From an uncultured Coriobacteriaceae bacterium (GTDB lineage: Bacteria > Actinomycetota > Coriobacteriia > Coriobacteriales > Atopobiaceae), in the NCBI GenBank assembly GCA_902791035.1, contig CADAUA010000003.1, forward strand, positions 1 to 64,000: a stretch of 64,000 bases of DNA, written 5' to 3'. How positions within the stretch are numbered: the stretch's first letter is position 1; each line of letters starts with the position of its first letter. The position numbers and the translations under genes are program-made. The notes under the pieces were generated by a model that had not been told where the DNA came from, did not search any database, and saw only the letters and a program-made list of their open reading frames with translations. Below are positions 36,823 through 40,316 of the stretch, piece by piece.

Positions 36823-37569
36823 CTAGAAGAGGACTCCCAGCACCACCAGGGCCACCCCCACGCCCATTATGGCCAGATCGAGCGCACGCATGGGGTAGCG
36901 CTTGTAGGACGACTCCCGCGTGCGCAGGTAGAAGCCCCTCTCTTCCGCGGCTAGGGCGGTGTCATCCGCCTTCGAGACCGAGCTGATGAGCAGGGGCACC
37001 ATGAGCGGCATCATGAGACGGAACCGATGGAAGATGTTCCCACTGTCGTACTCCACGCCGCGCGCGGTCTGCGCCTCAACTATCTGGTCCATCTCCTCCG
37101 AGAAGATGGGCACGAAGCGCAGGGCCGTCGTGATGGTGAACGCGTACTTGTAGGGCACGTGCAGCACCTCCACGAAGGCGTTGGCCAGGTCTGTGGGACG
37201 TGTCACCCAAAGCATCACCATGAGTGGCAGGGCGAAGGTCAGCAGCCTGATCCCCGCATGGGCAGCCACACTGGCCCCATGGTCGGTGACCCAGAGGAAC
37301 ACGATCTGCCCCTGGCGCGATATGGCCGTCTGAATCAGGAACATGACCGCGCTCACCGCCAGTAGGCCTGCCAGCAGCTTGAGCGTCCGCCGTCCCACGC
37401 CGCCCAGGAAGCTCATGCCCACCGTGAAGGCCAGGAGGCCCAAGAGCATGGGGTAGCCCTGGGCCAGGAAGGTGCTCACGCAGATGCAGATGGCCAGGAA
37501 GACCTTGGATACGGGGTTGGCCCTGTGCAGGGGCGACGTGCCCTCGCTGTACTCGACTGCGTTGCTCAT
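36823..37569 (-). CDS. ecfT: ECF transporter transmembrane component EcfT
   Basis: EcfT couples ATP hydrolysis to the toppling of the substrate-binding S component. The 248 residues have about five hydrophobic segments in the first half and the coupling helices with the conserved short motif twice: EAQTARGVEYD (about 165-175) and LAAEERGFYLRT (about 208-219). The start overlaps the ecfA stop as ATGA. It is the third gene of a complete S-A-T operon, so this looks like a dedicated (group I) ECF transporter. Confidence 0.92.
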   Translation of the reverse strand: MSNAVEYSEGTSPLHRANPVSKVFLAICICVSTFLAQGYPMLLGLLAFTVGMSFLGGVGRRTLKLLAGLLAVSAVMFLIQTAISRQGQIVFLWVTDHGASVAAHAGIRLLTFALPLMVMLWVTRPTDLANAFVEVLHVPYKYAFTITTALRFVPIFSEEMDQIVEAQTARGVEYDSGNIFHRFRLMMPLMVPLLISSVSKADDTALAAEERGFYLRTRESSYKRYPMRALDLAIMGVGVALVVLGVLF

Positions 37570-39326
37570 TGGCGTGCCAGCCCCCTCGTTACCTCAACGA
37601 TGTCGTGGACCTCGGTGATACCGCCAAAGGCCGGGCTCACCTCATCCGCCAGCCTCTTGGAAAGCTGCGCCACCTGCGGTGCAGACACATAGGCCCGTGC
37701 CAGGAGCTCCTCGTCTCCAAAGACGTCCGCCGGGGCCCCGTCCGCCAGAATCCGGCCGTTCGCCATCACGATAAGCCGCGAGGCGAAGTCGGACACGACC
37801 TCCATGTCGTGGCAGACCATCACGACGCCACAACCCTTGCGGCGCATCTCGTCGACAGCCGCCATGACCTCCATGCACTCCCTGTAGTCGAGGCCACTCG
37901 TGGGCTCGTCCAGCACCAGGACGTCCGGCTCCGTGACCACCACGGAGGCCAGGGCCACGATCTGCCGCTGGCCGCGCGAGAGCGAGAAGGGCGCCGCATC
38001 CTCGGGAAGGGCAAAGCGCGAGACCACGGAACGGGCACGCTCCGTCGCGACGTCATCGGCGACGCCCAGTAGCTGCAGGCTGAAGGCCACCTCCTCGAGC
38101 ACCGTGTTCTTGCAGAGCTGGCGGTCCGGGTCCTGGAAGAGGGTCGACACGTGACGCGCTATCTGGCTGGTACGCTGGCTGGTGGTCTTCTCGCCGCAAA
38201 CCTCTACCGTGCCCCTCGAGGGCCGCAGGAGACCATTGATGAGCTTGGTCGTGGTGGTCTTGCCGGCACCGTTCTGGCCGATAACCCCCACGAGCTCGCC
38301 ATGGCGCACCTGGAAGGTGAGGTCCTCCACCGAGGCCCCTCCCATCCCGTAGGAGAAGCCCACATGGTCGAAGTTCAGGACCGGACGTCCCACCGGCGGC
38401 TCCTCGCTCACGGTCCTGCGGGCCACCTCGAAGCCCGCTCCTCGGTCTCCCACGACACGGGCGACCGTCTCCACGGCCTCCTCCACATTGAGGCAGACCT
38501 CGTTCGTGGGCGTGAGGCCGTAGCGGGCCAGCTGGTTGGACACGCGCGTGACTCGCGGGGAATCGACGCCCAGCGCCCGCAGCTCCTCGCCATGAGCGAA
38601 GACCTCGCGTGGGGTCCCATGGAAGCGCAGGCTCCCCTCGGCAAGCACGGCCATATGGCGGCAGTACTCCGAGAGAAGGGCGACCTTCTGCTCTATGACC
38701 ACGACCGTGATGCCCTCCTCCTCGTTGAGGAGGCGCAGCGTCTCGAAGACCGAGCGCGAGGATGCCGGATCCAGGGCTGCGGTCGGCTCGTCGAGCACCA
38801 TTACGCGGGGACGGATGGCCAGGATGGCCGCGATGGCGACCTTCTGCTTCTGGCCACCGGAGAGCGTGGAGACCTCGCGATGGAGGAGATCCTGGATCCC
38901 CACCGTGCGCAGGGCCCACTCCAGACGGTCAGGAATCTCCGCATGAGGCACGCCGAAGTTCTCCAGACCATAGAGCATCTCGTCCTCGACGTTGGAGGAG
39001 ATCATCTGGGCATCGATGTCCTGCAGGACCGAACCCACCGCACGGCTCACGTCGGTGAGCTCCACCTCCACGGTGTCCATGCCGCAGACCATGGCCACTC
39101 CCTGGAAGGTCCCTCGATAGTGGTGGGGGATGGCACCCGAGAGCACGGCGGCCAGGGTGGTCTTGCCAGCGCCGGAGGGCCCTATGATGCCGAGGAAGTC
39201 TCCTTGAGGTACCTGCAGGTCAAAGTGGCTCAGGGCCGGCTTCTCCCCCTCCAGGTAGGTGAACGACACGTCCCTGAGGCTCAGCACCGGCTCGTCGCCC
39301 CCCGCGGACGTTGCCGCAGCTGGCAT
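37566..39326 (-). CDS. ecfA: ECF transporter ATPase with two fused ABC domains
   Basis: This protein powers the ECF importer; most ECF systems use two separate ATPases, EcfA and EcfA'. The 586 residues contain two ABC domains. The first has Walker A GPSGAGKTT (about 49-57), signature LSGGQKQK and Walker B VMVLDEPTAALDP; the second has GQNGAGKTT, the altered signature SLSRGQRQ and VLVLDEPTSGLDY. I chose ATG 39326, nine bases after GGGAGAAG; the frame is open 15 codons further. A strong hairpin (39376-39404) separates it from the S component. Confidence 0.93.
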   Translation of the reverse strand: MPAAATSAGGDEPVLSLRDVSFTYLEGEKPALSHFDLQVPQGDFLGIIGPSGAGKTTLAAVLSGAIPHHYRGTFQGVAMVCGMDTVEVELTDVSRAVGSVLQDIDAQMISSNVEDEMLYGLENFGVPHAEIPDRLEWALRTVGIQDLLHREVSTLSGGQKQKVAIAAILAIRPRVMVLDEPTAALDPASSRSVFETLRLLNEEEGITVVVIEQKVALLSEYCRHMAVLAEGSLRFHGTPREVFAHGEELRALGVDSPRVTRVSNQLARYGLTPTNEVCLNVEEAVETVARVVGDRGAGFEVARRTVSEEPPVGRPVLNFDHVGFSYGMGGASVEDLTFQVRHGELVGVIGQNGAGKTTTTKLINGLLRPSRGTVEVCGEKTTSQRTSQIARHVSTLFQDPDRQLCKNTVLEEVAFSLQLLGVADDVATERARSVVSRFALPEDAAPFSLSRGQRQIVALASVVVTEPDVLVLDEPTSGLDYRECMEVMAAVDEMRRKGCGVVMVCHDMEVVSDFASRLIVMANGRILADGAPADVFGDEELLARAYVSAPQVAQLSKRLADEVSPAFGGITEVHDIVEVTRGLARQ

Positions 39327-39422: not shown

Positions 39423-39971
39423 CTACTTGCGGTTGGCTGCCTTTGCGATGGGACCGGCAAGAAGGCCGACCACGATCGTGTTGAAGGCGGCCGTGCCGAT
39501 GACCACGGGCAGCTTGACCAGGAGCATGCTGGCCTCGAAGCCCGCCATGGCGTTGCCCACAGCCGCGAAGAGCATTCCGGAGACGATGGTCGTTACGAAC
39601 GCGGCCACATAGGGCATGGCCTTGGACTTCTTGAAGGCGCTGTTCACGAAGAGGCCCATCACCAGGCTGCCGCAGGCCTCGGTGAGGAAGTTGAGGCCCG
39701 GGATGGAGGTGTTGAGCTGGGCCACCACGGCGCAGATGAGGCCCAGCACGACGCACTGGCCCACCTTGGGCCTGATGGCGATGATCGCCAGGCAGTAGGC
39801 GGCGATCACGAACTGCGGGTGGATGCCGGTGGTTGCCAGGGCCTGTCCGACGGTGATGTTGAGGATGAAGCCGGCGGCTGCGAGCAGCGCCGTCAGGACG
39901 AGCGCGGACACGTCGAGCTTGCCGTTGGACTGGGTTCCGGACTGGACGGTGCGGGTGGCCTTGTCTGCCAT
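39423..39971 (-). CDS. trpP: TrpP-like ECF S component, predicted tryptophan transporter
   Basis: The 182-residue membrane protein has about six hydrophobic segments and resembles Bacillus TrpP (YhaG), in which I recall closely matching stretches: LTALLAAAGFILNITV near the N-terminus, RPKVGQCVVLGLICAVVAQL with NTSIPG, and PVVIGTAAFNTIVVGLLAGPI at the end. TrpP proteins have the S-component fold. Here the gene is followed by a fused EcfA ATPase and EcfT. The upstream leader peptide with three Trp codons and an attenuator hairpin supports tryptophan as the substrate. The start ATG at 39971 has AGAAGGG upstream. Confidence 0.75.
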   Translation of the reverse strand: MADKATRTVQSGTQSNGKLDVSALVLTALLAAAGFILNITVGQALATTGIHPQFVIAAYCLAIIAIRPKVGQCVVLGLICAVVAQLNTSIPGLNFLTEACGSLVMGLFVNSAFKKSKAMPYVAAFVTTIVSGMLFAAVGNAMAGFEASMLLVKLPVVIGTAAFNTIVVGLLAGPIAKAANRK

Positions 39972-40046: not shown

Positions 40047-40076
40047 AAAAAAAGGCTCCCGGTCTTCCCGGGAGCC
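40047..40076 (-). terminator. Attenuator terminator in the leader of the ECF operon
   Basis: A perfect 9-base stem, GGCTCCCGG with CCGGGAGCC, with a 5-base loop, followed on the minus strand by TTTTTTT. It ends about 75 bases before the TrpP-like gene and begins 33 bases after the stop codon of the Trp-rich leader peptide, so a read-through decision is required for the operon to be expressed. Confidence 0.92.
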
Positions 40077-40122
40077 CTGTTCGCGACATGCAGGCGGAAG
40101 CGAACGACTCACAGTCGACCGG
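40059..40122 (-). promoter_or_regulatory. Candidate antiterminator pairing of the trp attenuator
   Basis: CCGGTC (40117-40122), inside leader codons 16-18, is fully complementary to GACCGG (40059-40064), which covers the end of the terminator loop and the start of its 3' arm. Allowing one bulged G adds two pairs. A ribosome stalled at the Trp codons (40139-40147) would leave CCGGTC free; a ribosome at the stop codon would cover it. Confidence 0.5.
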
Positions 40123-40168
40123 AGAGGAGAAGCTTATGCCACCACCAGTTGTTGCGACGCTGCGTCAT
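40109..40168 (-). CDS. Tryptophan leader peptide (attenuator)
   Basis: The 19-residue peptide MTQRRNNWWWHKLLLSGRL has three consecutive UGG codons at residues 8-10 (40139-40147). The strong Shine-Dalgarno sequence AAGGAGGAG lies seven bases before the ATG. A stable terminator follows 33 bases after its stop. This is the arrangement of a ribosome-mediated attenuator, as in trp biosynthesis operons of actinobacteria and enterobacteria, but here it precedes a transporter operon. Confidence 0.88.
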   Translation of the reverse strand: MTQRRNNWWWHKLLLSGRL

Positions 40169-40287
40169 GGCCCGCTCCTCCTTCCCTCTTCTCTGCTTCC
40201 GATGAGTGCACTGTACGTTGCGAGATCCGCTGGGTCGGGCCCGAACGTCGATACGCAACAAGCTCTTAACACAGGGTACCCTTGCAT

Positions 40288-40316
40288 ACAAAAGGACCCC
40301 GCGTGAGCGGGGTCCT
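40288..40316 (-). terminator. Intrinsic terminator of rplU-rpmA
   Basis: Perfect 10-base arms AGGACCCCGC (40293-40302) and GCGGGGTCCT (40307-40316) with a TGAG loop; the minus strand continues TTTGTATG. It separates rpmA from the ECF operon, so that operon must have its own promoter in 40170-40287. I see no convincing -10/-35 there. Confidence 0.88.

Follow-up and report, generated by a model that had tools for sequence, protein, structure and literature searches.

How an uncultured Coriobacteriaceae bacterium adjusts expression of a probable tryptophan importer is very likely explained by a ribosome-mediated transcription attenuator responsive to charged tRNA-Trp. The element lies on the minus strand of the window, the whole 64,000-nucleotide stretch of DNA that was analyzed (Table 1). 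A leader open reading frame (ORF) of 19 codons, located between rpmA on one side and a TrpP-like gene on the other, runs from an ATG at 40168 to a TGA stop at 40111 to 40109. A preliminary description of this DNA had claimed a strong Shine-Dalgarno sequence and UGG UGG UGG at codons 8 to 10 for this ORF, and the sequence bears out both. The same description placed a perfect 9-bp hairpin with seven T's 33 bases after the stop. The hairpin and the T tract are present (GGCTCCCGG at 40076 to 40068, a GAAGA loop, and CCGGGAGCC at 40062 to 40054), but the stem begins 32 bases past the TGA, a trivial correction. With one A-U and one G-U pair added to the core, the stem is 11 bp, and the resulting intrinsic terminator stands between the leader ORF and the first gene. 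The separate terminator said to divide rpmA from the leader is real. The full layout (Shine-Dalgarno sequence, ORF with three adjacent Trp codons [WWW], stem of at least 8 bp, and T5) was present a single time in the window, and 60 dinucleotide shuffles of it produced no instance. The layout is not due to chance, as judged by the shuffles and by the loci selected through the downstream gene below. A sigma-70 scan of the leader region detected no promoter.

Table 1. Features of the attenuator and its operon in the window
Feature	Position	Strand	Evidence
Terminator 3' of rpmA, upstream of leader	40293..40316	-	
Shine-Dalgarno AGGAGG of leader ORF	40177..40182	-	8 nt 5' of ATG; sequence
Leader peptide ORF, MTQRRNNWWWHKLLLSGRL then stop	40109..40168	-	Sequence; WWW + 9 codons + stop in 94/106 unique leaders
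UGG UGG UGG, codons 8-10, also core of region 1 (protector helix)	40139..40147	-	
Antiterminator 5' strand CCGGUCGACUGUGAGUCGUUCG, leader stop codon inside	40101..40122	-	Duplex; nucleotide conservation; z -3.9
Protector (1:2) post-stop strand, pairs with Trp-codon region	40086..40102	-	Duplex -14.0 kcal/mol; z -4.6
Antiterminator 3' strand (terminator 5' arm, loop, start of 3' arm)	40058..40082	-	
Intrinsic terminator stem-loop AGGGCTCCCGG-GAAGA-CCGGGAGCCTT	40052..40078	-	Alignment covariation; own vs swapped z -12.9
T7 tract of terminator	40047..40053	-	Sequence
TrpP-like ECF substrate-binding (S) component, first regulated gene	39423..39971	-	Pfam PF17099 TrpP
Fused EcfA-EcfA' ATPase	37566..39326	-	TIGR04520 and TIGR04521, above cut-off
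EcfT transmembrane component	36823..37569	-	Pfam CbiQ

Pfam and TIGR matches downstream confirm that the leader belongs to a TrpP-like/ecfA/ecfT operon, as had been proposed. The S component matched Pfam TrpP weakly, at 33 bits against a cut-off of 27.2, and the S components of 9 of 13 relatives matched TrpP as well. Tryptophan is the probable substrate. Judged by their inferred substrates, the target genes would serve the supply or metabolism of the amino acid that the leader codons specify. In many relatives (L005, L015 to L026, L028, L030, and others), one leader is followed by a tandem pair of S components. Both resemble the single S component of the window, and the second may have a different substrate or be a duplicate.

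Competing helices and proposed mechanism

The preliminary description proposed an attenuator without identifying an antiterminator or a protector helix. Both were found, and the proposal is supported by them. The predicted antiterminator draws on the end of the leader ORF and the stop region, and it is mutually exclusive with the terminator by prediction and by coevolution. In duplex prediction, it reached -26.3 kcal/mol in the window and averaged -20.0 kcal/mol when leaders were paired with their own strands. A long antiterminator was predicted in almost every leader, and so was the protector, a 1:2 helix in which the regulatory codons pair with a strand farther downstream and which was weaker in a few leaders (-8.2 kcal/mol in L006). 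Pairing was kept despite sequence changes, as in UCAACUC/GAGUUGA of L004 versus UCGACUC/GGGUUGA of L111.

Coevolution was assessed by an alignment-free swap test in which each strand was exchanged between leaders less than 85% alike (n = 41), a design that removes kinship in part. The z scores were -12.9 for the terminator, -4.6 for the protector, and -3.9 for the antiterminator, and three control pairings in the same set gave no signal (z of -0.4 to +0.6). A stricter limit of less than 75% likeness, which left 13 leaders, gave weaker signals that were still present (-6.7, -1.9, and -2.8, respectively). The post-stop segment alone had also been considered as the partner of the terminator 5' arm, and the swap test gave that pairing (S3:S4, P:R3) no support. 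We conclude that the three predicted helices coevolve, as each pairs better within its own leader than between swapped leaders once kinship is partly removed.

How the helices would be switched can be proposed from their arrangement. When Trp-tRNA is scarce, the ribosome on the leader would halt at UGG UGG UGG, mask the Trp-codon strand (region 1), and leave free the antiterminator strand about 27 nt downstream. The free strand, GGUCGANNSUGAGUC with the leader stop inside, would pair with the 5' arm of the terminator, its loop, and the first bases of its 3' arm, and RNA polymerase would continue into the genes for the S component, EcfA, and EcfT. With Trp-tRNA in good supply, the leader would be translated as far as the stop, the footprint of the ribosome there would mask the antiterminator strand, and the terminator would form. 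After release of the ribosome, the Trp-codon region and the post-stop segment may pair and loop out the antiterminator strand, and termination would be favored. Ribosome stalling, termination, and the response to Trp-tRNA charging are what we infer from the anatomy and the helices.

The geometry is consistent with the proposal. With a Trp codon in the A site, the ribosome is expected to extend roughly 12 to 18 nt beyond the first base of the first UGG. The antiterminator strand begins near +27, counted from the same base; once at the stop codon, the ribosome would extend to about +48 and overlie the strand, whose position is consistent with that footprint. In an equilibrium folding model from which the ribosome-covered parts of the leader were removed, the probability that the terminator 5' arm paired upstream averaged 0.67 with the ribosome at WWW versus 0.27 with the ribosome at the stop, and it was higher at WWW in 40 of 42 leaders. 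The same model gave 0.61 with no ribosome at all; thus, the untranslated state is not clearly terminating, and the equilibrium calculation alone leaves basal termination to be accounted for by kinetics or by the protector helix.

Conservation of the leader in Coriobacteriia

Thirty loci were drawn from the class by the S protein alone with the leader ignored. In 28 of them, TGGTGGTGG precedes the S gene or, where two S genes stand in tandem, the first of the pair. A CUCCCGG-type terminator was nearly always present, and the two exceptions, L012 and L013, kept the terminator and had lost the Trp codons. The genomes of L012 and L013 have trpA; in the named set, L179 is Olsenella profusa. A covariance model built from 21 leaders was run over 398 genomes. 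Relatives carrying the operon with neither Trp codons nor hairpin had been named beforehand as grounds for doubting attenuation; instead, of the 125 genomes with an S gene in the window's family or in f3, its sister family, 119 keep the element, at E values up to about 1e-8. Named carriers of the S gene and leader include Olsenella, Lancefieldella rimae, Collinsella aerofaciens, Collinsella tanakaei, Enorma massiliensis, and Slackia piriformis. In a phylum-wide sample, scores above background came only from members of the same order. Weak R1 matches of about 30 bits (such as L072, L139, L140, and matches outside the class) resemble unrelated hairpins and were excluded from the counts.

The 106 unique leaders were gathered largely with a model that contained the Trp codons, and that set is therefore biased, such that the unbiased measures of conservation are the counts taken from the S-gene side (28/30 and 119/125). 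Within the set, exactly nine codons separated WWW from the stop (usually UGA) in 94 leaders, and AAC usually preceded the three Trp codons. A Shine-Dalgarno-like sequence was present in 105, a figure that is partly circular because the choice of start favored it. The N terminus of the peptide varied in length and sequence, and the last residue varied as well (L, S, R, Q, or W). Around the stop, GGUCGANNSUGAGUC was conserved at the nucleotide level. L027 and L029 have an early end of frame at GGU-UGA and retain the RNA motif, and several leaders of SNF-family transporters have their stop six codons past the beginning of WWW, with CGGU at about the same distance. As GGUCGA..UGAG is retained where the frame ends early, selection acts on the RNA.

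These patterns bear on whether translation of the ORF is sensed at all. The short ORF might lie by chance before a plain terminator, or it might encode a peptide that acts in trans, as proposed for peTrpL, and leader peptides that act in trans are known (PMC7298713). The coevolving, mutually exclusive helices weigh against either version, as do the constraint on the RNA where peptide ends vary and the conservation of the Trp codons while the rest of the peptide drifts. We consider an unsensed ORF quite unlikely.

The nascent peptide might instead resemble TnaC by sensing free tryptophan and arresting the ribosome, such that high rather than low tryptophan alters expression. The leader contains Trp and stands before a transport gene, much as tnaC precedes tnaAB. 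Arrest by TnaC is caused by free tryptophan (PMC3902921). In the present leaders, however, the three Trp codons adjoin one another and their distance from the antiterminator strand is fixed, the last residue is unconserved, and a GC-rich intrinsic terminator is conserved. Moreover, the early stops of L027, L029, and the SNF-family transporter leaders remove the end of the peptide and leave the RNA. The early frame ends in several leaders, with the RNA retained, led us to reject a conserved-peptide reading, and a TnaC-like mechanism is very unlikely.

T-boxes, TRAP, and further targets of the element

Charging of tRNA-Trp appears mostly to be read differently at the S gene in Eggerthellaceae. 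There, an Rfam T-box lay upstream of the S gene at 16 of 19 loci, all with scores below the Rfam gathering score of 93 and with E values of 3e-6 or less, and the three T-box-free loci (L155, L160, and L163) had TGGTGGTGG upstream of the S gene instead. In the window's genome itself, a T-box scoring 59.9 bits stands before a complete trpEGDCFBA operon. This T-box, the best in the genome, adjoins trpE (L081:4342-4597; G000:C1:253341-253596), and by our reading of its placement in the alignment, its specifier would be UGG followed by a purine. Thus, one cell appears to rely on a T-box for tryptophan synthesis and on a leader peptide for import. Like the attenuator, T-box leaders (RF00230) would in principle respond to charging of tRNA-Trp with read-through as the outcome, whether at Eggerthellaceae S genes or at trpEGDCFBA of this genome; unlike the attenuator, they bind the tRNA directly and have no leader peptide.

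Control of the importer operon by a T-box or a TRAP-like protein would have precedent, as T-boxes stand at Eggerthellaceae S genes and Bacillus trpP is under TRAP control. B. subtilis trpP (yhaG) is, like the S gene here, a TrpP-family gene, and its control responds to tryptophan, as that of the importer operon would. In B. subtilis, however, the TRAP protein is the regulator, whereas here the Trp codons of a translated leader would be read and the genome has no detected TRAP gene: PF02081 was not found in this assembly of 99% completeness, with B. subtilis as a positive control. An Rfam scan of the leader locus gave chance-level matches only and no T-box, the best T-box of the genome being the one before trpE. 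Control by either is extremely improbable.

The attenuator precedes genes other than the importer. An SNF-family transporter (Pfam SNF) follows it in genus g40, Eggerthellaceae; its best solved match is 4us3, the bacterial amino acid transporter MhsT. A TrpB-like enzyme follows it in some f3 genomes, Eggerthellaceae, and f4. Both targets fit a role in tryptophan supply. The TrpB-like enzyme (TIGR01415/NF009057) has AAAWWW or GAWWW leader peptides at L071, L073, L075, L133, and L136 to L138, and the WWW leaders at this gene suggest that indole salvage is part of the same regulon. We also note that Slackia piriformis (G072) has two attenuators in a row at L063, one before an SNF-family transporter and the other before an S-EcfA-EcfT operon.

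Taken over the class, the element may well represent an RNA family absent from Rfam that governs a tryptophan salvage regulon (ECF importer, SNF-family transporter, and TrpB-like enzyme) across Coriobacteriia, with a ruler-like antiterminator strand fitting the footprint of the stop-codon ribosome and with exchange for T-boxes at the same gene. We hold this broader reading to be somewhat favored. In Gardnerella (L201 to L217), the S-EcfA-EcfT order is found with a different WWW leader (ARMWWWQSSLW) and the terminator AAGACCTCCGGGG, and the GGUCGA..GAGUC core was absent from these leaders. Convergence or distant homology is possible for this look-alike; if the class-wide reading is true, it would mean convergence or transfer.

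Known attenuators and biological meaning

Attenuators of trp and trpS are known in other Actinobacteria (PMC1262725, Seliverstov 2005). Like the trp attenuators of Corynebacterium and Streptomyces (PMC1262725) and trpL of Escherichia coli, the element has a short ORF with two to three tandem UGG codons and an antiterminator that competes with a GC-rich terminator and U tract, and charged Trp-tRNA would be read by the ribosome. Those attenuators target trp biosynthesis genes or trpS, whereas the targets here are an ECF importer, an SNF-family transporter, and a TrpB-like enzyme. Moreover, the antiterminator strand here includes the leader stop codon and the end of the coding region, and the biosynthesis operon of the window's genome has a T-box. 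Candidate histidine leader-peptide attenuators have been proposed in Firmicutes for his operons and/or the hisZYX transporter (PMC9413887). They share with the present element amino acid supply genes, including transport, and alternation with T-boxes between lineages, and they differ in amino acid, phylum, and RNA. Given the histidine transport proposal (PMC9413887) and the actinobacterial trp and trpS attenuators (PMC1262725), the type of mechanism is already known. In the open literature that was searched, we found no description of a leader-peptide attenuator in Coriobacteriia. The mechanism is classical; the novelty, to judge from that literature, lies in the ECF importer as target, the wide occurrence in Coriobacteriia, and the alternation with T-boxes at one gene.

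Why the importer matters to these bacteria is suggested by what their genomes lack. A gene for the tryptophan synthase alpha subunit was undetected in 110 of 129 leader-bearing genomes, the others having 12 strong and 7 weak matches. As most leader-bearing genomes have no detectable alpha subunit, the switch probably governs the main tryptophan supply of these gut and oral bacteria, and tryptophan is a metabolite of host interest. The regulatory codons also provide an independent prediction of substrate, tryptophan, for an ECF family known mainly by weak similarity. Finally, the T-box and the leader peptide, two sensors of tRNA charging, make a clean case of exchange at one gene between related families, and in one genome they stand side by side, one for synthesis and the other for import.
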